From a virus, in IMG/VR virus record IMGVR_UViG_3300048836_000528, positions 1-28,386 of that record: a DNA stretch of 28,386 nucleotides; one strand, 5' to 3'. This document shows, piece by piece, positions 3,062-28,360 of the stretch. The position numbers were made by a program, and so were the translations under genes. The notes beneath the pieces are model-generated. The model was given only the letters and a program-made list of their open reading frames with translations, made no database searches and was not told the origin of the DNA. How positions within the stretch are numbered: position 1 is the stretch's first letter; every line of letters begins with the position of its first letter.

Positions 3062-4468
3062 ATGAAGACCAAGAACCTGCTGGAGCAGGATAGCTCCTTC
3101 GCGCCCCTCGAACAGAAGGACGCGGGCCTCCCGACCGATCCGGCCATTGCCATCAAGCAGATCGCCGAGGCGGTCGAGGCGTTCAAGGCCAGCCACTCCG
3201 AAGAGATGGCCGAGCTGAAGAAGAAGGGCACCGCCGACCCGGTCCTGCTCGAACGTCTCAGCAAAATCGACACGCAGCTCAACACCGCGACCGAGGCGAA
3301 GACCGCACTCGAAGCAGCGATCGCGGCAGAGCGCAAGGAGCGCGAAGATCTCGAGCTGCGCCTCCAGCGCCACGACATCAAGGGCGACGGCGACGCCGCG
3401 AAGGGTGCGCTCGAGCTGAAGGAGTTCAACCTGGCGGCGGCTGCCATTGCGGCGGACCGTAAGCGCAACTTCACCCCGCTCGACCAGAAGGCCTTCGACG
3501 AGTACCGCGCGGTTGCCGTAAAGCATATGCGGCTCGGCAAGGACGCGCTCGACGCGGACGAGCTGAAGGCGATGTCGGTCGGCTCGGATGCGGACGGCGG
3601 CTACCTCGTCACCCCCGATACCACCGGGCGCATGGTCAAGAAGATCTTCGAGACCAGCGACATCCGCGCGATCGCCAATGTCCAGGCCATTTCCAGTGAC
3701 AAGCTGGAAGGGTCGGAGGACCTCGAGGAAGCCGGCGCGGGTTGGGTCGGAGAGACCGAAAGCCGATCCGAGACCGGCACGCCCAAGCTGGGCGAGTGGG
3801 AAATTCCGGTGCACGAGATGTATGCCGAGCCGCGCGCCACGCAGAAGCTGCTTGACGACGCTTCGGTCGACGTCGAAGCTTGGCTGGGTGACAAGGTGGG
3901 CATGCGCTTCGGCCGCATCGAGAACCTCGCCTTCGTCAAGGGCAACGGGATCCGCAAGCCGCGCGGCTTCGCCAGCTACGAGGTCGAGGCCGACGAGGGC
4001 AACGGCGTCCCCTGGGGCAAGATCGGCTTCGTGAAGTCGGGCGCGAACGGCGCATTTGTCGCGTCGAATCCGGCCGACCGTATCCACGATCTCATCGGCC
4101 TGCTCAAGTCCGCCTACCTTCAGGGTGCGACCTTCGTCACCAAGCGGCAGATCGTCACCTTGATCCGCAAGTTCAAGGACGGCCAAGGTCAGTACCTCTG
4201 GCAGCCGAGCCTTGTGCTTGGCGAGCCCGAGCAGCTGGCCGGCTTCCCGATCGTGCGCGCCGAGGATCTCGACGCTCCGGCGGCGGGTTCGCTCTCGCTG
4301 TGGTTCGGCAACTTCCGCGAAGGCTATCAGGTCGTCGAACGCCAGGGCACGCGCACGCTGCGCGATCCCTTCACCAGCAAGCCCTTCGTCAAGTTCTATT
4401 CGACCCGCCGCGTCGGCGGCGGGGTAGTGAACTTCGAGGCGCTGAAGGCGATGCAGTTCTCGGCCTAA
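3062..4468 (+). CDS. Major capsid protein, HK97 fold
   Basis: This 468-residue protein builds the icosahedral head. Residues 1 to about 110 are charged and coiled-coil-like (the delta domain acting as internal scaffold). The mature HK97 fold should begin near residue 165-175, just before the conserved SDADGGYLVTPDT stretch where the S78 protease normally cuts. Further family marks are LEEAGAGWVGETESR, the E-loop region, a late LAGFPIVRAEDL and the C-terminal RRVGGGVVNFEALKAM strand. The start has a strong Shine-Dalgarno (GGAAAG at 3051-3056) and, unlike its neighbours, is not overlapped, which suits a protein needed in hundreds of copies. A terminator-like hairpin follows. Confidence 0.95.
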   Translation: MKTKNLLEQDSSFAPLEQKDAGLPTDPAIAIKQIAEAVEAFKASHSEEMAELKKKGTADPVLLERLSKIDTQLNTATEAKTALEAAIAAERKEREDLELRLQRHDIKGDGDAAKGALELKEFNLAAAAIAADRKRNFTPLDQKAFDEYRAVAVKHMRLGKDALDADELKAMSVGSDADGGYLVTPDTTGRMVKKIFETSDIRAIANVQAISSDKLEGSEDLEEAGAGWVGETESRSETGTPKLGEWEIPVHEMYAEPRATQKLLDDASVDVEAWLGDKVGMRFGRIENLAFVKGNGIRKPRGFASYEVEADEGNGVPWGKIGFVKSGANGAFVASNPADRIHDLIGLLKSAYLQGATFVTKRQIVTLIRKFKDGQGQYLWQPSLVLGEPEQLAGFPIVRAEDLDAPAAGSLSLWFGNFREGYQVVERQGTRTLRDPFTSKPFVKFYSTRRVGGGVVNFEALKAMQFSA

Positions 4469-4489
4469 GGCCGAGCCCACATTCCGCGA

Positions 4490-4518
4490 GGGGCGGCGTC
4501 ACTGACGTCGCCCCTTTT
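4490..4518 (+). terminator. Terminator-like hairpin after the capsid gene
   Basis: An 11-base stem (4490-4500 with 4504-4514, one G-T wobble) closes on a three-base ACT loop and is followed by TTTT at 4515-4518. It sits between the capsid gene and the next gene of the same operon. This fits a partial terminator that lowers downstream transcription relative to the capsid gene, or that stabilises the 3' end of the capsid mRNA. The short T-run suggests incomplete termination. Confidence 0.7.
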
Positions 4519-4548
4519 GCTTTCCCCAGCTCCCCAATGGAGGCTTCA

Positions 4549-4983
4549 ATGCACACCATCACTGAAAACATCGAGATCCGCGAAGTCGGCGCGCCTGTCG
4601 CCGCCGGCGCGACGATCGACAACAGCTCCGACCGCATCGACATGGACGATTACGAGAGCGTCACCTTCATCGCGGTTATCACCGACAGCGTCGCCACTGG
4701 CGTTGCCGCTCTCACCATCGAGAGCAACGACGCAGACAGCGACAGCGGCATGGCCGCGATCACCGGTGCCGTCGCCACCGTCACCAGCGTGGCCAACGAT
4801 GACGTCAACGACAAGCTCCTGATCGTCGAAGTCCGCAACCCGGGCAAGCGCTTCGTCCAAGCGGTGCGCACCTCGCTCACTGCGAACATCGCCTACGGGT
4901 CGGTGATCGCACTGCTCACGCCGCGTCGCCGGCCGGTGGTCGATCACACCACCGTCGCGGACATCGCCCGCGTCAGCGACTAA
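4549..4983 (+). CDS. Capsid-adjacent structural protein of unknown role
   Basis: This 144-residue protein starts at the ATG at 4549, chosen because GGAGG (4539-4543) lies five bases upstream; an in-frame ATG at 4537 overlaps that site and is less likely. The sequence is beta-rich, with segments such as YESVTFIAVITDS, TVTSVANDDVNDKLLIVEV and a conserved-looking NPGKRFVQAVRT core ending in an arginine patch (PRRRP). It has no Cys. From memory, similar short beta proteins directly follow the capsid gene in other siphoviruses, where they are usually left unnamed; a head decoration or neck protein is a reasonable guess but unproven. Spacing to the connector gene is three bases. Confidence 0.8.
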   Translation: MHTITENIEIREVGAPVAAGATIDNSSDRIDMDDYESVTFIAVITDSVATGVAALTIESNDADSDSGMAAITGAVATVTSVANDDVNDKLLIVEVRNPGKRFVQAVRTSLTANIAYGSVIALLTPRRRPVVDHTTVADIARVSD

Positions 4984-21304: not shown

Positions 21305-21585
21305 ACCAATCAGACCGCGCTGCGCTCGGCGCGATCGCCGATCAGATCAAGGCGCTCACAAATGGCCTTGAGACGCTTGAATACCTCGGAAAGCCCGAGA
21401 CCGTCAGTGCCCTCCAGGACCTCGTCCGGATCGCTCCAACGCTGAAGAAGCTGGCCGATGGTTATAACGCCGCCGGCACCGTGGGCGGGTGGATCGGCCG
21501 GGTGCTCAAATGGATTGCAAGCCTTGCAGGTGTGATCCTCGCGCTCGCTGCAATCTGGTCCCTCTATTTCGGAGACAGCAAATGA
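21301..21585 (+). CDS. Single-TM lysis-region protein, holin candidate
   Basis: This 94-residue protein has an N-terminal soluble part of about 65 residues, mainly helical (LGAIADQIKALTNGLETLEY and SALQDLVRIAPTLKKLADGY). One strong C-terminal membrane helix (IASLAGVILALAAIWSLYF, about residues 72-90) follows a Lys, and the protein ends GDSK. The gene has GGAGG upstream (21288-21292) and its stop overlaps the endolysin start (ATGA at 21582). Small membrane proteins directly before the endolysin are often holins, but holins with a long N-terminal domain and one C-terminal helix are only one class; it could also be a regulator. The second candidate is at 22229. Confidence 0.75.
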   Translation: MNQSDRAALGAIADQIKALTNGLETLEYLGKPETVSALQDLVRIAPTLKKLADGYNAAGTVGGWIGRVLKWIASLAGVILALAAIWSLYFGDSK

Positions 21586-22232
21586 CCTTGCCCTTCAAAC
21601 CGGCCGATCTGTTCGGCAAGATCCGTGAAATGCTCCACGCCCGCGGCAGCACGCTGCGCCAGGACGAGGTCGACGCGATCGGTGCCATCCTTGAAAGCGG
21701 CGCTAAGCCCACCGCGCCGAGCGAACCCGAAAGGGCTTTCGTCCCCACCAAGGTTAGCGTGAAGGGCGAGCAGCTGATCAAGAGCTTCGAAGGCTGCGCA
21801 CGCCGTCGACCTGACGGGCTGGTCGAAGCCTATCCGGATCCCGGGACCGACGCCGAGCCTTGGACCATTGGCTGGGGTGCAACCGGAGCGGACCACTTCA
21901 ACGGTGGGCGCATCCGGCGCGGCACGGTATGGACGCAAGCCCAATGTGATCAGCGCAAGCGCGAAGATCTGGAGCGCTTCGCTCGCGAAGTGAACGCGGC
22001 GCTCGGTTCCGCTATTGGCGCCACCAGTCAGGCCCAGTTCGATGCGCTGGTCAGCTTCCATTACAACACGGGTGCCATCGCGCACGCGGCTCTCACTCGC
22101 AAGCATATCGCCGGCGACTTCAAGGGCGCGGCCCGCGAGTTCGGCAGGTGGGTCAATGCTGGCGGCCGACCGATGAAGGGATTGATCCGCCGCCGTGCAG
22201 CCGAGGCCGCACTCTACGTGAGCGGGTCGTGA
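21582..22232 (+). CDS. Endolysin, GH24 lysozyme
   Basis: This 216-residue muramidase cuts peptidoglycan at the end of the lytic cycle. The ATG overlaps the previous stop. The lysozyme domain covers about residues 58-212. The catalytic Glu is E70 in LIKSFEG; it is followed by AYPDPGTDAEPWTIGWGAT, where D86 and T101 fit the family triad, and by QFDALVSFHYNTG, a highly conserved helix. Residues 1-55 are an extra N-terminal segment without a membrane helix or export signal, so this is not a signal-anchor-release enzyme and would need a holin. The RRRAAEAALY end is typical. The stop overlaps a GTG start. Confidence 0.92.
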   Translation: MTLPFKPADLFGKIREMLHARGSTLRQDEVDAIGAILESGAKPTAPSEPERAFVPTKVSVKGEQLIKSFEGCARRRPDGLVEAYPDPGTDAEPWTIGWGATGADHFNGGRIRRGTVWTQAQCDQRKREDLERFAREVNAALGSAIGATSQAQFDALVSFHYNTGAIAHAALTRKHIAGDFKGAAREFGRWVNAGGRPMKGLIRRRAAEAALYVSGS

Positions 22233-22600
22233 AGACCGCGAGCGCCTTCTTTCGCTGGCTCTGGTCGCCCATCGCGGCACTTTGGTGTGAGGTCATTGGC
22301 CTCCGATCCGAACAGATCCGTAGCCTTGCCGTGGTGGCAGGGCTGGTCATCCTATTCCGTGGGTTCGAGCGGATGGATGCCGGAGACAGTCTGATCGCGC
22401 CATTCGTGGTCGTGACGATCATTTGCCTGGCGATGACCTTTGGTCTGGCTTGGCAGGCGACCAGCATCAAGGGCCGGTGGGGCGCGGCAGCGATCAGCCT
22501 TGGCCGCGATCCCGATCCAGACAACCGCGTGACCGCGCAATCCACGGCCAACCGGCCTGTGATTGTCGATGATCCTGATTCCGTGGAGCAGATATCATGA
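22229..22600 (+). CDS. Two-TM membrane protein, second holin candidate
   Basis: The GTG at 22229 overlaps the endolysin stop (GTGA) and gives 123 residues, the only start consistent with coupling. A short amphipathic N-terminus (KTASAFFRWLWSPIAALWCE) leads to two hydrophobic helices, about LAVVAGLVILF (residues 33-45) and APFVVVTIICLAMTFGLAW (about 56-74). A soluble tail of about 45 residues follows with DPDPDN and VDDPDSVEQIS. Two helices plus a charged tail fit a class II type holin, and endolysin-holin-spanin order is common, but the long acidic tail is not typical. The stop overlaps the ATG of the inner-membrane spanin (22597). Confidence 0.72.
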   Translation: MKTASAFFRWLWSPIAALWCEVIGLRSEQIRSLAVVAGLVILFRGFERMDAGDSLIAPFVVVTIICLAMTFGLAWQATSIKGRWGAAAISLGRDPDPDNRVTAQSTANRPVIVDDPDSVEQIS

Positions 22601-22932
22601 GTGCCGTCGCCACCTTCCTTGCTGCTGCTGGGTACAAAGGCCTGAAGAACTGGATCTGGATTGCACTGGTGGCCCTGATCGTTGCGGCGATCTGGACTTT
22701 CGTTGCAGTCGCCGATCGCCGCCACGAGAACGCCCTCGATGTCGCGGCCGACGCCGGCGCGCTCGGCGCTGTGGTTGCTGGGCAGGCACAAACACTCGAC
22801 CAATTGGGAGACGCAAACAATGCTGAAGAAACCCTTCGCACTGCTGGTGAGCGCAGCGCTGCTCGCTTCGATCAGTGCCTGCTCGACAACCGGGACAAAT
22901 CCACCTGCGAGCGATATCGCCCCGCGCCGTGA
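22597..22932 (+). CDS. Inner-membrane spanin, Rz-like
   Basis: This 111-residue protein has a short N-terminus, one membrane helix (WIWIALVALIVAAIWTFVAV, about residues 18-38) and a periplasmic helical domain of about 70 residues. Two Cys near the end (FDQCLLDN, STCERY) may form a disulfide. This is the usual i-spanin build: one N-terminal anchor and a periplasmic coil that pairs with the lipoprotein spanin to fuse inner and outer membrane. The ATG overlaps the previous stop. The out-of-frame overlap with the next gene, from 22820, is typical of Rz/Rz1 pairs and supports the call. No sequence similarity to lambda Rz is claimed. Confidence 0.8.
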   Translation: MSAVATFLAAAGYKGLKNWIWIALVALIVAAIWTFVAVADRRHENALDVAADAGALGAVVAGQAQTLDQLGDANNAEETLRTAGERSAARFDQCLLDNRDKSTCERYRPAP

Positions 22933-23098
22933 CCTGACCAGCTGGTGCCAAGGCGATCGGACGATCAGCTATCAGTCTGCGCCGGCTGCCGGCGTGGATG
23001 ACCCGGGCAACAGCTTTGACAGTGACGAGACCGTCGCCGAAATTCAGCAGCACAACGCCCGTCTGCGCGCGGCGTGCCCAGGAGATGAAGGGCGCTGA
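22820..23098 (+). CDS. Outer-membrane spanin, Rz1-like lipoprotein
   Basis: The ATG at 22820 has GGGAG at 22806-22810 and lies 113 bases inside the Rz-like gene, in another frame. The 92-residue product has a lipoprotein signal: basic MLKK, hydrophobic PFALLVSAALLAS and lipobox ISAC with Cys at residue 21. The mature chain carries a short Pro-containing stretch (TTGTNPPASDIAPRR), two more Cys (SWCQGD, AACPGD) and a helical end (ETVAEIQQHNARLR). It would be the outer-membrane partner linking to the inner spanin across the periplasm. It is the last gene of the late operon; its stop at 23096-23098 is followed by a small hairpin (23111-23126). Confidence 0.82.
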   Translation: MLKKPFALLVSAALLASISACSTTGTNPPASDIAPRRDLTSWCQGDRTISYQSAPAAGVDDPGNSFDSDETVAEIQQHNARLRAACPGDEGR

Positions 23099-23142
23099 GG
23101 CCTTAGCATCTTCCCGACGGCGGGAAAATGGTGCCCCAAAAG

Positions 23143-23164
23143 GGGGGTATCGGTGGGGGTATCG
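23143..23164 (+). repeat. Direct repeat GGGGGTATCG, two copies
   Basis: Two exact 10-base copies start 12 bases apart, in phase by about one helix turn. They are about 280 bases upstream of the integrase 1 start. This is the spacing and size of arm-type integrase binding sites, but binding is inferred. Confidence 0.6.
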
Positions 23165-23217
23165 TGCAACGCAACCCAGCCTAAAAGCCGCAGAGTTGCG
23201 CGGTTTCGCCGCGTTGG

Positions 23218-23242
23218 CGGCGCGGAGGGATTATCCGCGCCG
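23218..23242. repeat. Perfect 9-bp inverted repeat
   Basis: CGGCGCGGA and TCCGCGCCG pair perfectly across a 7-base loop (GGGATTA). It is not followed by a T-run on either strand, so it is not an obvious terminator. It could be a protein site in the putative attP, or a chance feature of GC-rich DNA. Confidence 0.5.
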
Positions 23243-23444
23243 TTGACCGAGGGCTGGGCGCTACGCCAGCGATCCGGCGGCAGGGCACTAGACCGGCTTC
23301 ACCTTCTCGCCCGCTGGCTACACTCGGCTATCACGATCCTCGCTTTCAACACCCTGCAGGCCGTGCGTGTCTCCAGGAGCGTCCCCCAGCTTTCCACGCC
23401 GCCTCGGCGTTCCAGTACTAGACCATTCGTCGGAGCTCCGAAAG

Positions 23445-24626
23445 ATGCTTACCAACGCCGCGGCGAAAGCCGCCGGCGCGCAGGCGCGCGCCTACAAGCT
23501 GCACGACCAAGGCGGGCTGCACCTGCTGGTGCGGCCGACCGGCTCGAAGAGCTGGCAGCTCAAGTACCGCTGGCGCGGCCGCGAGAAGCTGCTCACGCTC
23601 GGGCAGTTCCCCGAGGTCAATGTCAACTGCGCGAGGATCCTTCAGGCCAAGGCAAAGCAGCAGCTCGCAGCCGGCATCGATGCCGGGCGCAGGGCCGCTG
23701 ACGGCGATACGCTCGAGCAGCTGGCGCGACTGTGGTACCAGGCCAACCTTCCGGCTTGGTCGACCGCCCATGCCGAGGACGTCCTTGCCAGTCTCGAGCG
23801 CGATATCTTTCCCGAGCTGGGCGCCGCCGCTGCCGGCAGCGTCACCGCGCCGCAACTGCTCGCCGCGATCGAGGCGATCGCCGGCCGCGGCTGTCGCACT
23901 TCCGCGCACCGGGTGCGCCAGCGGCTTGCCGAGATCTTCGCGTTCGGCCGCGCGCGCGGGCTGGTGTGCGGAAACCCTGCTGCAGATCTTGGGGCAGCAA
24001 TGCTGAGCCCGCCGCCGGCGCGGCCGCACGCGGCGCTGACCTCGATCGAGGATTGCCGGGATCTGCTCGCAGCCTGCGAGCGGGACCAGGCGCGAGCCGA
24101 GACGATCCTCGCGAGCAGGTTTCTGGCGCTGACCGCAGTGCGCCTGGCGGCCGTGCGCGGGATGCGCTGGGGCGAGGTCGACCTCGATGCTCGTACTTGG
24201 ACGGTGCCGGCGGCGAGGATGAAGCTGAGTCGGGCCAAGAAAGACGATGCGCGGTTCGATCATGTGGTGCCGCTGAGCGCGGCCGCAGTCGCGGTGCTGA
24301 AGCAAGTGGACGAAAATAGCGGGTGCCATACCCGAACTGGTCCACTCGTCTTCCCCGGCCGCGGTGGCGGGCCGATCGCGGCCGGCGCGATCCGGGAGCT
24401 TTACGATCGCGCGGGCTTCGCCGGCCGCCACGTACCGCACGGTTGGCGCGCCAGCTTCTCGACGATCATGAACGAGGATCTGGGCCCGGGCTGGCGCTTC
24501 GACATCGATGCAGCGCTTGGCCACGCGGGCAAGGGCAAGGTCGAGGCAGCATACAACCGCTCGGCCCAGCTCGGTCGCCGGCGCGAAGTTTTCGACCGCT
24601 GGGGAGCGATGCTCGCGGGCACATAA
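23445..24626 (+). CDS. int: Tyrosine recombinase / integrase 1 (P4-like)
   Basis: This 393-residue recombinase starts at ATG 23445 with GGAG at 23432-23435. It has an N-terminal arm-binding DUF4102-type domain (DQGGLHLLVRPTGSKSWQLK), a core-binding middle (from LARLWYQANLPAWST) and the catalytic domain. All six usual catalytic residues are present: Arg in LTAVRLAAVRGMRWGEVD, Lys in the beta hairpin (MKLSRAKK), His and Arg in VPHGWRASFS, His in LGHAGKG, and Tyr in VEAAYNRSAQ. It is thus probably active. It lies directly after the attP-like stretch and before the methylase. It is a clear paralogue of integrase 2 at 26880, which faces the other way. Confidence 0.93.
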   Translation: MLTNAAAKAAGAQARAYKLHDQGGLHLLVRPTGSKSWQLKYRWRGREKLLTLGQFPEVNVNCARILQAKAKQQLAAGIDAGRRAADGDTLEQLARLWYQANLPAWSTAHAEDVLASLERDIFPELGAAAAGSVTAPQLLAAIEAIAGRGCRTSAHRVRQRLAEIFAFGRARGLVCGNPAADLGAAMLSPPPARPHAALTSIEDCRDLLAACERDQARAETILASRFLALTAVRLAAVRGMRWGEVDLDARTWTVPAARMKLSRAKKDDARFDHVVPLSAAAVAVLKQVDENSGCHTRTGPLVFPGRGGGPIAAGAIRELYDRAGFAGRHVPHGWRASFSTIMNEDLGPGWRFDIDAALGHAGKGKVEAAYNRSAQLGRRREVFDRWGAMLAGT

Positions 24627-24772: not shown

Positions 24773-25591
24773 GTGACAAATGCAACTCTTGAGGCCGTCA
24801 GGCCTGTGCGTACTGCAGCCGGATACATCGGCGGCAAGCGCAACCTCGCGCAGCGGATCTGCGCGATCATCGCCCAGGTCGACCATGATGGGTACGCCGA
24901 GCCCTTTGTCGGCATGGGCGGGATCTTCCTGCGCCGACGCGCCCGACCGAGGGTCGAAGCGATCAACGATATCTCCGGCGACGTGGCCACGTTCTTCCGC
25001 GTCCTTCAGGAGCACTATCCCTATTTTATCGACATGCTGCGCTGGCGCGTGTCGAGCCGCCATGAATTCGAACGGCTGCGGGGTCTCGACCCGGCGCGGC
25101 TCACGGACCTCCAGCGCGCAGCGCGATTCCTCTATCTCCAGCGGCTCGCCTTCGGCGGGAAGGTGGCGGGCCGGAACTTCGGCGTCGACAAGGCGCAAGG
25201 TGCGCGCTTCGATATCGGCAAGCTCGAACCGTTGCTCGCCGATATCCACGAGCGCCTCGCCGGCGTCACCATCGAGCAGCTTCCCTTCGACCAGTTCATC
25301 GCGCGGTACGACCGGCCGGGCATGCTGTTCTATTGCGACCCGCCGTACTGGGGCTGCGAGGACGATTACGGGGCGGAGGTTTTTGTGCGGTCCGACTTCG
25401 AACGACTGGCGGCGGCGATCCGCGCCGCGGCCGGCAAGTCGATCATCTCGATAAACGACACGCCCGATGTTCGGGAGATCTTCGCGGATCTGCACCAGGT
25501 GCCGATCGATACCACGTACTCGATCTCATCTGCCCACGGCGGCGCGAAGCGAGCGGGCGAGCTCCTTATCAGCAACTTCGCGCTGCCATAA
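24773..25591 (+). CDS. DNA adenine methylase, Dam / D12 class
   Basis: This 272-residue enzyme transfers a methyl group from S-adenosylmethionine to N6 of adenine. It starts at GTG 24773 with AAAGGA at 24759-24764. The D12 class order of motifs is seen: AGYIGGKRNLAQRI (AdoMet loop), AEPFVGMGGIFLRR, the NDISGDVATFFRVL acidic strand, and the catalytic DPPY in FYCDPPYWGCEDDYG, followed by a KSIISINDTPDVREIF strand. The end (SISSAHGGAKRAGELLISNF) is usual. Phages use such enzymes to protect DNA from host restriction or to control timing. The target sequence cannot be read from the protein by eye. It is the last rightward gene before the terminator at 25758. Confidence 0.9.
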   Translation: MTNATLEAVRPVRTAAGYIGGKRNLAQRICAIIAQVDHDGYAEPFVGMGGIFLRRRARPRVEAINDISGDVATFFRVLQEHYPYFIDMLRWRVSSRHEFERLRGLDPARLTDLQRAARFLYLQRLAFGGKVAGRNFGVDKAQGARFDIGKLEPLLADIHERLAGVTIEQLPFDQFIARYDRPGMLFYCDPPYWGCEDDYGAEVFVRSDFERLAAAIRAAAGKSIISINDTPDVREIFADLHQVPIDTTYSISSAHGGAKRAGELLISNFALP

Positions 25592-25757: not shown

Positions 25758-25782
25758 ATGAGGCTGCCCCAAGCAGCCTCAT
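25758..25782. terminator. Bidirectional terminator between convergent genes
   Basis: A perfect 10-bp stem (ATGAGGCTGC at 25758-25767 with GCAGCCTCAT at 25773-25782) encloses a 5-base loop. It lies between the rightward methylase gene and the leftward winged-helix gene, whose stop codon (25779-25781, minus strand) is inside the stem. T-runs are short on both sides (TCCTT on plus; GTTTTC further along on minus), so efficiency is uncertain. Confidence 0.7.
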
Positions 25783-26546
25783 TCCTTATGAATACTTCGA
25801 CTGTGGTGGGGATTCAGGCCAGTCACTGAACTCGCACCCTTGAGCATAGCGAGGTGCTCGGCCTGCGCGCGTTCGTCGCCGGGATAGATAATCCGGGCCT
25901 GCTCCTCCGGGGTTGTGGCGCGTCTGAAGCACGCTGCCTTGTAGGCGCTGGCGTTGACGATCGCGGCCTTGCGTCGCGCGAGGATGCCTTCGAAGCGCGG
26001 GTATGTAACCTTGTTTTCGGTAAGGCTCTTGCCCTTGCGGCGCAGCAGCTGCTGCAGACGATCATAGCAGCGCTTGTGCAGGCGGGATGGGTCGAACCAG
26101 TAGGCGTTCGAGACCTGCTTCACCTGCGGCCCTTCGCCCGGCGCGTTGCCGGTGCGCTCGGTCCGCCGGATGTGATCCATGAAGCCGTCGGCCTCGAGGT
26201 TGCGGATCGCGCGCACGACCGTCGCCCTGGCGAGCCTGGTCTTGCTCATGATCGTGTCGATGCAGGGCTCGCAGATTCCCTTCTTGAAGTCCCAGCACGA
26301 CAGGATCGCGCGCAGTACCTTTTGACCGGCGAGGCCGAAGCGGTGGCGCTTGCCGACCTCCTTGGTGTAATCGTCCCACTCGGCCAGCACGCGCATCAGG
26401 CCGTCGACGAATGCCATGCCCCAAGGGTTCGGCCGCGCGACCTGCGCGCGCCTGTCCTCGACGTCGAAGCTATCGCGGCGCACCGGCTGGTAGGTGCGAC
26501 GCTCGCCAGCGAGCAGCTGTCCCTTCATTGTGCCGAGGCCGCTCAT
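25779..26546 (-). CDS. Winged-helix protein, possible replication protein
   Basis: This 255-residue protein is the last gene of the leftward operon; its ATG overlaps the stop of the preceding gene by four bases. The central part carries a winged helix: CEPCIDTIMSKTRLARATVV then RAIRNLEADGFMDHIRRTER, matching a HTH_36-type or MarR-like reader. The N-terminal third (NPWGMAFVDGLMRVLAEWDD) and the KRHRFGLAGQKVLRAIL segment look conserved. The C-terminal 100 residues are basic and helical (CYDRLQQLLRRKGKSL). I recall similar proteins in alphaproteobacterial prophages annotated as replication protein A or helix-turn-helix protein, but I cannot confirm this. It may start replication or regulate the element. 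It is not a typical CI-type repressor. Confidence 0.75.
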   Translation of the reverse strand: MSGLGTMKGQLLAGERRTYQPVRRDSFDVEDRRAQVARPNPWGMAFVDGLMRVLAEWDDYTKEVGKRHRFGLAGQKVLRAILSCWDFKKGICEPCIDTIMSKTRLARATVVRAIRNLEADGFMDHIRRTERTGNAPGEGPQVKQVSNAYWFDPSRLHKRCYDRLQQLLRRKGKSLTENKVTYPRFEGILARRKAAIVNASAYKAACFRRATTPEEQARIIYPGDERAQAEHLAMLKGASSVTGLNPHHSRSIHKE

Positions 26547-26879: not shown

Positions 26880-28127
26880 TCAGCGCTTGCGCGGCCCTTC
26901 GATCAGCTCCTCTGGATCGCAGAGGCCCTGACACAATAGATCGGCCCACTCGCGAGCGATCTCGCGCCGGCGCTTCATGTAAGCTGCACGGTTGTAGGTT
27001 GCCTCGACGCCAGCCTGCCGGTGCGCCAGCATCAGGTCGATGATCGCCCGATCGCCCGGCCGGTCCATATCCGAGGCGCGCTCGTTCATGATGGTGGAGA
27101 AGCTCGAGCGCCAACCGTGAGGCACGTGTTTCCCGCCGTAGCGCGGCACACGGCTGTAGTTCGTGCTTAGCGCGTTCTCGCTGATCGGTCGGTGCGAATG
27201 ACGGCTGGACGGAAACAGGTACTTGCGCCGCCCGGCCGACGCGATCGCCACCTTCAGCACGTCCACTGCCTGCGGGGCGAGCGGGACTATGAACTCGTAC
27301 GCTTCCTGCTCGGCGAACGCGCGCTCCAGCTTCATCTTGTCGGCCGGGATGCGCCAGATCGGCTCGGCTCCGTCCAGACCCTCGAACTCGTCTCGCTGGG
27401 CGAAGCGGATGTTGCCCGGCCGCGCGGCCGTAAGTGCCAACAGCCGCGACGCAAGCCGGGTCGCCGGCTGGCAGGGCTCGGCCTCGAGAGCGCGCAGAAA
27501 CGCCCGGCAGTCCTCGATCTTCGTCAGGGCAGGGTAGCGGCGCGATCGCGCCGGGATCAGACCCTTGCTCAGCGATGCGGCCGGGTTGGTCTCCGTCCAG
27601 TCGAGCGCGATTCCACACTCGAAGATCGCCGAGGCGTACTGCCGCAGCCGGTGAGCGATCTCGATCGCACCGCGTTCCTGCACCTTCTCGAGAATCGCAA
27701 GGATATCGGCCGGCCGAATTGCCGCGAGTGGCATCGGGCCCAGCACCGGCAGCAGATCCTCCTCTACCCTGCCTTTGACCGTCAGCGCATGCTTTGGCTT
27801 CCAGCCCTCGTCCTGTAGCGACAGCCATTTGGTGGCTGCCATGGCGAATGTGGGGGCCTCGCCGGAGGCCTTGGACCGTGGGCTTCCCGGATCGAGCCCC
27901 TTGCGCAATAGCGCGCGAGCTTCGAACATCAGATCCCGCGCCTCGCTTAGCTTCACTTCCGGGTATGGCCCGAAGGTCAGCTTCTTTTCCTTCCCGGCGA
28001 AGCGGTACTTGAGCTTCCAGCTCTTGTGTCCGGTGGGCGAGACGAGCAGGTACAGCCCATGCTGATCCGGCAGCTTCCTTGGCTTCGCCTCCGGCTGCGC
28101 TGAGCGGCACTCGCGATCGGTCAACAT
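26880..28127 (-). CDS. int: Tyrosine recombinase / integrase 2, next to tRNA-Asn
   Basis: This 415-residue integrase is read from 28127 leftward, starting about 160 bases from the tRNA 3' end. It has a DUF4102-type arm-binding N-terminus (DQHGLYLLVSPTGHKSWKLK), a core-binding middle and the catalytic domain. All catalytic residues are visible: Arg in LTAARPGNIRFAQRDEF, Lys in DKMKLERAFAEQ, His/Arg in VPHGWRSSFST, His in DLMLAHRQAG, and Tyr in EATYNRAAYM. Orientation and position are those of element integrases that use a tRNA gene as target. It is a paralogue of integrase 1, sharing stretches such as VPHGWR-SFSTIMNE. The ribosome site is weak (GGGGG a few bases before the start). It likely drove the insertion seen here. 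Confidence 0.93.
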   Translation of the reverse strand: MLTDRECRSAQPEAKPRKLPDQHGLYLLVSPTGHKSWKLKYRFAGKEKKLTFGPYPEVKLSEARDLMFEARALLRKGLDPGSPRSKASGEAPTFAMAATKWLSLQDEGWKPKHALTVKGRVEEDLLPVLGPMPLAAIRPADILAILEKVQERGAIEIAHRLRQYASAIFECGIALDWTETNPAASLSKGLIPARSRRYPALTKIEDCRAFLRALEAEPCQPATRLASRLLALTAARPGNIRFAQRDEFEGLDGAEPIWRIPADKMKLERAFAEQEAYEFIVPLAPQAVDVLKVAIASAGRRKYLFPSSRHSHRPISENALSTNYSRVPRYGGKHVPHGWRSSFSTIMNERASDMDRPGDRAIIDLMLAHRQAGVEATYNRAAYMKRRREIAREWADLLCQGLCDPEELIEGPRKR

Positions 28128-28285
28128 TGGAGGCCCCCAGTGCCAGAACCCGAAGCCCCCGCACGGCCCCCACCAGATGCGGGAACTCTTGGGAACAACG
28201 GGGCTTCGAGGGGTAGGTACTGTTGTCGTAAGGCGCGGAAATCAAGCCTTTTTGGGAACAACGCGGACCTTCTGGGAATGTGTAA
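28128..28285 (-). other. Region between integrase 2 and tRNA, with GGGAAC repeats
   Basis: No gene is seen. Two exact copies of TTGGGAACAACG lie at 28189-28200 and 28252-28263. Further GGGAA cores are at 28181 (GGGAACTC) and 28274 (GGGAATG), all in the same orientation. Such short repeats between an integrase gene and its tRNA attachment site are usually arm-type integrase sites. The integrase promoter must also be here, but I cannot place it. Confidence 0.6.
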
Positions 28286-28360
28286 TGGCTCCCCGAGTAG
28301 GATTCGAACCTACGGCCAAGTGATTAACAGTCACCTACTCTACCGCTGAGCTATCGGGGA
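28286..28360 (-). tRNA. tRNA-Asn (GTT), with encoded CCA
   Basis: Read leftward from 28360, the sequence begins TCCCCGA and ends TCGGGGA, discriminator G, then CCA (28288-28286), giving a perfect 7-bp acceptor stem. The D arm (GCTCAGCGGTAGAG) and the T arm (GTAGGTTCGAATCCTAC) are normal, and the anticodon loop CTGTTAA carries GTT, for asparagine. Length is 75 bases with CCA. The gene is intact and points its 3' end at integrase 2, so it is the probable attachment target, with integration rebuilding the tRNA 3' end. Confidence 0.95.

Follow-up and report, generated by a model that had tools for sequence, protein, structure and literature searches.

The window analysed here is an entire IMG/VR record (IMGVR_UViG_3300048836_000528; 28,386 bases) that begins within terL and finishes just beyond a tRNA-Asn. 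It encodes two P4-like tyrosine recombinases, Int1 (23445–24626, plus strand) and Int2 (26880–28127, minus strand), both recognized by their Pfam domains, and this work concerns the first of them together with the site upstream of it. The head, tail and lysis genes all run rightward as far as 23098 and are followed by non-coding DNA (23099–23444), int1 and the gene for a Dam-type methylase; after this, the minus strand carries genes for a replication-like protein and a small protein, and then int2, adjoining the tRNA-Asn. In the non-coding stretch, GGGGGTATC occurs twice in direct orientation, ahead of a palindrome of 23 bp (7-bp centre), and in related phages the DNA between this palindrome and int1 is swapped between near-identical backbones.

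Int2 at the tRNA and Int1 inside the phage

Int2 lies beside a tRNA in the window and in four relatives (G274, G202, G380 and V005). In the window this is tRNA-Asn(gtt) (28286–28360, minus strand; ARAGORN and Rfam), whose 3′ end serves as attachment site for Int2. The complete prophage G274 (40.8 kb) has ends formed by a 34-bp perfect attL/attR repeat of the tRNA-Asn 3′ end, beside int2; Int2 is therefore the integrase of lysogeny. The far end of the window's own prophage is out of view because the record begins within terL.

Relatives of int1 and int2 were gathered from viral contigs and genomes, and the order lysis–site–int1–dam–int2–tRNA recurs across many independent phages and Sphingomonadales genomes. 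Five loci (L003, L004, L005, L006 and L037) have int1–dam–(rep)–int2 in the same order, with the lysis genes to the left where relatedness permits. Complete contigs read from terL through lysis–site–int1–dam–(rep)–int2–tRNA, and this layout is maintained despite diverged Int2 proteins and differing tRNAs (Asn in the window, G274 and G202; Gln in V005; Tyr in G380). In L006, neither the int1 site nor the tRNA-type attP of Int2 is split; late genes lie to one side and early genes of the cI/CII type to the other, a gene order that reads as that of a free phage genome. Int2 thus occupies the prophage edge, and Int1 is internal, next to an unsplit site, in the window and in G274, G202, G380 and V005. 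The original prediction had placed Int2 at the edge of the element by the tRNA and Int1 inside it, with the lysis genes opposite and a repeat-bearing non-coding stretch between, and each of these points holds; the presence of two systems within one phage, which it had offered as one possibility, is supported by the recurrence of the whole layout and by the ends of G274 at int2 and the tRNA.

Int1 is a full-length tyrosine integrase (Pfam Arm-DNA-bind_3, 2e-17; Phage_int_M, 1e-22; Phage_integrase, 7e-15) with the same set of three domains as Int2. Its conserved start is the ATG at 23445 and not the GTG at 23367, as relatives start M-L-T/S at that point. Residues R233, K260, H332, R335, H360 and Y370 are invariant across 60 Int1 relatives, and this intact R-K-H-R-H-Y set, together with the three domains, places Int1 among the P4-like tyrosine integrases. 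The 60 Int1 proteins, together with three genome copies, form one clade (Shimodaira–Hasegawa-like approximate likelihood ratio test, 99) that is separate from all Int2 proteins.

The site upstream of int1 and the exchange of cargo

The site consists of arms and a palindromic core. The arm-type direct repeats GGGGGTATC (23143–23151 and 23155–23163, plus strand), set 12 bp apart and at −77/−65 from the core, are retained in close relatives. The core, GGCGCGGA-GGGATTA-TCCGCGCC (23219–23241, plus strand; spacer GGGATTA at 23227–23233), is the candidate crossover site of Int1 and is invariant or almost so among window-type phages. Between arms and core lies an inner motif, GCCGCAGAGTTGCGCGG (23188–23204, plus strand), present in most home sites (those beside int1) as judged by eye. 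Many other sites have GGCGGAAATCCGCC in its place, an imperfect palindrome between arms and core that is half-site-like with a short spacer. The repeats and the palindrome are beyond chance: their spacing recurs in close relatives, and a reversed-control form of the composite pattern gave zero matches in 398 genomes. Across the family the arms sit on a helical grid of ~10.5 bp with respect to the core, the nearest arm being mostly at −43/−42 or −66 to −62, with gaps of 11/12 or 21/22 bp. Related tRNA integrases have GGGGGCA-type repeats between tRNA and gene, beside their att sites, which supports reading the site repeats as arm-type integrase sites.

An exact scan for the core recovered near relatives only, and a composite arms-plus-core pattern was required for the wider family; site totals are lower bounds. 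The composite scans found at least 164 strict sites in at least 125 fetched contigs, in arrays of 2–6, and the scan of viral contigs at least 119 site stretches. All copies on a contig are co-directional (mixed orientation in 0 of 23 multi-site contigs). In Sphingomonas melonis AS2.3 (L040), three clear sites and one degenerate site upstream of int1 alternate with a small membrane open reading frame (ORF), a SpoU-type methylase, a Fic protein and a further ORF, and arrays of 4–6 sites with short ORFs between them occur in L135, L104, L091 and contig 2740891838. Repeated co-oriented sites thus alternate with different small genes, as in a cassette array. Many phages have two clusters, the home site by int1 and an array 21–32 kb off, in the early region upstream of terL; many records have just one site.

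One array-bearing element, G445 (IMGVR_UViG_3300048856_000107; L135, L239), is a 22-kb int2–int1–tail–early element with a six-site array and without most structural genes, probably a deleted prophage. Directly repeated sites stand on either side of structural genes in several related prophages, so Int1 could have caused deletions such as that in G445. Two loci with sites are of other kinds. A low-GC (guanine plus cytosine) island at a tRNA-Cys (G348:C10 714340–727643; L071, L072), outside recognized phage, carries an integrase gene of its own, a resolvase gene, an ORF of 1023 aa and a single cassette-type site. In G227 (C100 7583–9190; L064), two sites lie between phage-like lysis/tail genes and host genes (lysA-like) on a contig without an integrase. 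Given these sites in a non-phage island and in G227, cassettes may travel beyond int1-bearing phages.

Int1 and the site tend to occur together. Int1 was found in 7 of 398 genomes (score gap 510 versus 473 bits), five of which have the site, compared with 2 of the 391 others (p = 5e-9); G340, an Int1-bearing genome outside the five, has a degenerate site. Int1 distance also tracks core distance (r = 0.46–0.49, p = 0.0002), with a partial correlation above that of Int2 or Dam.

The ends of homology, mapped by all-against-all comparison of contigs, locate the exchange. Homology between related phages stops at the right edge of the palindrome, with 29 ends (from 18 sites and 14 contig pairs) at +8 to +28 versus 1.1 expected under random placement; left-flank matches gave zero ends between −50 and +9 and zero between +40 and +200. 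Beyond the break lies unrelated low-GC cargo, and homology returns at the Int1 start codon. L157 and L171, for example, share 2.3 kb at 97% identity up to +17; unrelated DNA follows (661 bp in the former, 260 bp in the latter), and from the int1 start they match again, at 93% identity. G202 and L161 show the same pattern with 117 and 890 bp of unrelated DNA, and G428 and G441 do likewise. The core-to-int1 distance ranges from 53 to 2441 bp over 64 home loci. The cargo slot of the window (23242–23444, plus strand; from the core to the int1 start) spans ~200 bp without a convincing ORF, so that the window is close to an empty example. One cassette is common to G413 and G445 (80% identity) as a site–cargo–site block with different neighbours, and homologues stand beside sites in G413 and G451; the same cassette, bounded by sites, thus recurs in different contexts, again as in a cassette array. 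An exchange site at the core is well supported.

The cargo looks foreign: its ORFs have a mean GC content of 56.8%, compared with 64.1% in the contigs that carry them, and 68 of 72 fall below their contig; at home loci 41 of 50 are directed away from int1. Among 80 cargo proteins scanned with Pfam, more than half had no match; the others include Fic, type IIG restriction-methylation, RmrA/RmrT, HEPN, protein kinase, RelA/SpoT, HicB and IrrE-type peptidase proteins, AAA ATPases, SpoU methylase and Crp-type regulators. By these matches, the cargo resembles moron and defence genes. Crp/cyclic-nucleotide-type regulators stand next to sites in four arrays (G417, L095; G438, L125; L169; G445, L135) and, of the cassette cargo compared, recur most often.

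Of the remaining features of the window, the endolysin (21582–22232, plus strand; Pfam Phage_lysozyme, PHROG endolysin) and a spanin-like gene pair at the end of the late operon (22597–22932 with nested 22817–23098, plus strand; weak PHROG Rz match) precede the site. Both spanin-like genes are kept in L003, L005 and L036. The hairpin CCCGACGGCGGG followed by AAAA (23113–23124, plus strand; read from the sequence), retained in L003 and L005, is possibly the terminator of the late operon. Downstream of int1 lie a Dam-type D12 N6-adenine methyltransferase (24773–25591, plus strand; Pfam MethyltransfD12, 2e-21; PHROG, 4e-76), a helix-turn-helix/replication-initiation-like protein (25779–26546, minus strand; weak PHROG matches, with a similar gene in the same place in most relatives checked) and a small phage protein (26543–26863, minus strand; phrog_1273, 4e-8). 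Dam, where present, is near the site: window-type phages have it downstream of int1, whereas in the G005 type it precedes the site; the L040 copy is at 3711–4550. Int2 has arm-type repeats of its own, TTGGGAACAACG (28189–28200 and 28252–28263, minus strand; self-match), which are unlike the arms of the Int1 site. In an Rfam search of the window, the tRNA was the sole match, with no other known RNA element.

Explanations for the second recombinase

We consider it likely that Int1 is a phage-borne, integron-like cassette recombinase and Int2 the lysogeny integrase, so that one phage family employs two recombinases. Int2 would insert and excise the prophage at the 3′ end of the tRNA, and Int1, as a second, specialized tyrosine recombinase, would act on the adjacent arms-plus-palindrome site. 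Small cargo genes would thereby be inserted, exchanged and stacked in arrays at the home site and at its copies elsewhere in the phage. A cassette would comprise a gene (often directed away from int1, with its stop beside the core) and one copy of the site, and Int1 would recombine the cores. That Int1 catalyses the swapping of cargo we infer from its association with the site, and we likewise infer the movement of cassettes in circular form and the way in which the int1-proximal edge arises. On balance, and with more reserve, we also lean towards a broader proposal: a family of Sphingomonadales temperate phages would possess a dedicated, non-IntI means of cassette capture, in which a second integrase, derived from the P4 type, works with a compact att site. 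Cassettes for defence, toxin and regulator functions would be stacked by it at two positions of the phage genome and passed on among phages and islands.

Several observations weigh against an Int1-driven cassette system. Neither an excised cassette circle nor a recombination product was seen. Home cargo mostly has a core on its left only; on the right it ends at the int1 start codon, where a second core is not visible. Spacers differ among the sites of an array (GGGNNNN), which is not favoured by a strictly homology-dependent integrase. Sites are present in two genomes without a clear Int1 (G227 and G348), and G349 has Int1, yet no recognizable site nearby. The advantage of Int1 over Int2 in the Mantel comparison is modest, and the regular expression used for the sites set broad limits on arm spacing, although the clustering of the arms was not imposed by the search because the pattern permitted wider ranges.

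The form of the int1-proximal edge would also suit ordinary homologous recombination between conserved borders, namely the site and int1, with the palindrome being regulatory or structural and not a crossover point: home cargo has its left edge within conserved DNA and its right edge at the conserved int1 start, and a second core near int1 is not seen. As a full account this is unlikely, since site copies also occur in arrays 21–32 kb from int1, the arms follow a helical grid, and many pairs have their break no more than a few bases from the edge of the palindrome. Homologous recombination within int1 could nevertheless contribute at the int1-proximal edge.

That Int1 is an alternative integrase, putting the whole phage into a second chromosomal site with 23099–23444 as a normal attP, has in its favour that Int1 belongs to the tRNA-targeting, P4-like integrases and that both sites are intact in L006, as they are in a free phage genome. 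The best candidate for a prophage end made by Int1 is the G227 locus, with its two sites between phage-like and host genes and no int1 on the contig. We regard such integration as improbable. Comparison of relatives at the lysis–int1 junction, to which the original prediction had pointed, showed that, in the fetched relatives with a home site and int1, the core is unsplit and is flanked left and right by phage or cargo DNA. Prophages that are complete or that abut a tRNA have their end at the tRNA site of Int2, and the arms-plus-core site occurs in only 7 of 398 genomes, with arrays and cargo inside phages. The suggestion of an apparently intact attP therefore stands only in part: the stretch is unsplit, but it is probably not an attP for host insertion, there being no clear split copy at a host junction, and it probably marks the edge of cargo-gene swapping. 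An origin of 23099–23444 as host sequence was rejected, since those seven genomes carry the site pattern in phage or island contexts.

It is very doubtful that Int1 serves, as Cre does at loxP, to resolve multimers of the phage genome or to trim it, with cargo present there since the site is a safe one; single-site records are many and direct site repeats surround structural genes in several prophages, but the arrays, the recurrent cassettes and the sharp cargo swaps at the core would go unexplained. Finally, the original prediction's nested integrase–methylase element, or two elements side by side, can hardly be entertained: Int1 and Dam are neighbours in the window and in several relatives, but no paired boundaries or flanking site copies surround int1–dam in the window, dam lies on the opposite side of the site in G005, G362, G416, G441 and others, so that int1–dam is not a fixed mobile unit, the whole gene block is conserved and syntenic across diverged phages, and among the loci fetched no relative with an intact backbone cleanly lacks int1–dam.

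Comparison with integrons and other integrase systems

Four Int1 proteins and one Int2 protein matched only the generic PRK09692 integrase-domain model, below cut-off, and one weakly matched XerC; Int1 was accordingly rejected as an integron integrase. No separate attI-like site was recognized, and no GTTRRRY-type box is evident by eye in the aligned home sites, for which no attC model search was made. Published integrons in phages use IntI and attC (PMC9892861). A description of this Int1/site system was not found in the open-access literature, and one may exist elsewhere.

The system shares several features with integrons (IntI, attI, attC cassettes and clusters of attC sites lacking integron integrases, CALINs). 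A tyrosine recombinase stands beside a slot of variable content, small genes of mostly unknown function are interspersed with repeated recombination sites, orphan arrays occur away from the integrase, and the cargo includes toxin–antitoxin, defence and regulator genes. By contrast, Int1 has Arm-DNA-bind_3 and no match to the integron-integrase model, its site, in place of an attI/attC pair, is a palindrome of the duplex type that has arms to one side, and the system is fixed in a phage family with a separate lysogeny integrase. The Int1 system would work like an integron, yet it would not be classed as one, since it lacks an IntI match and differs in site and integrase family.

With the P4-like tRNA-targeting integrases of prophages and genomic islands, Int1 shares protein family and domains (as Int2 does) and GGGGGYA-type direct repeats near the att site, whereas its clade is separate and its site, which precedes variable cargo, does not coincide with a tRNA end and stays unsplit in prophages. 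Integrases of the CTnDOT/Tn916 type use conserved half-sites with a partly variable short spacer (variable coupling sequences), to which the GGGNNNN found here may be comparable; they move whole conjugative elements, whereas here the units are small, each with a single gene or a few, and are interspersed with site copies inside phages.

The acquisition of single accessory genes ('morons') and defence genes by temperate phages is mostly ascribed to illegitimate or homologous recombination. If the cassette reading is correct, a conserved site and a dedicated recombinase would provide a specific, testable route for the gain of accessory genes, and such cargo would be findable by its boundaries. 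As more than half of the scanned cargo proteins lack a Pfam match, the arrays may be a source of unknown anti-phage genes. Cassette capture would then have arisen a second time, from an ordinary phage-type integrase.
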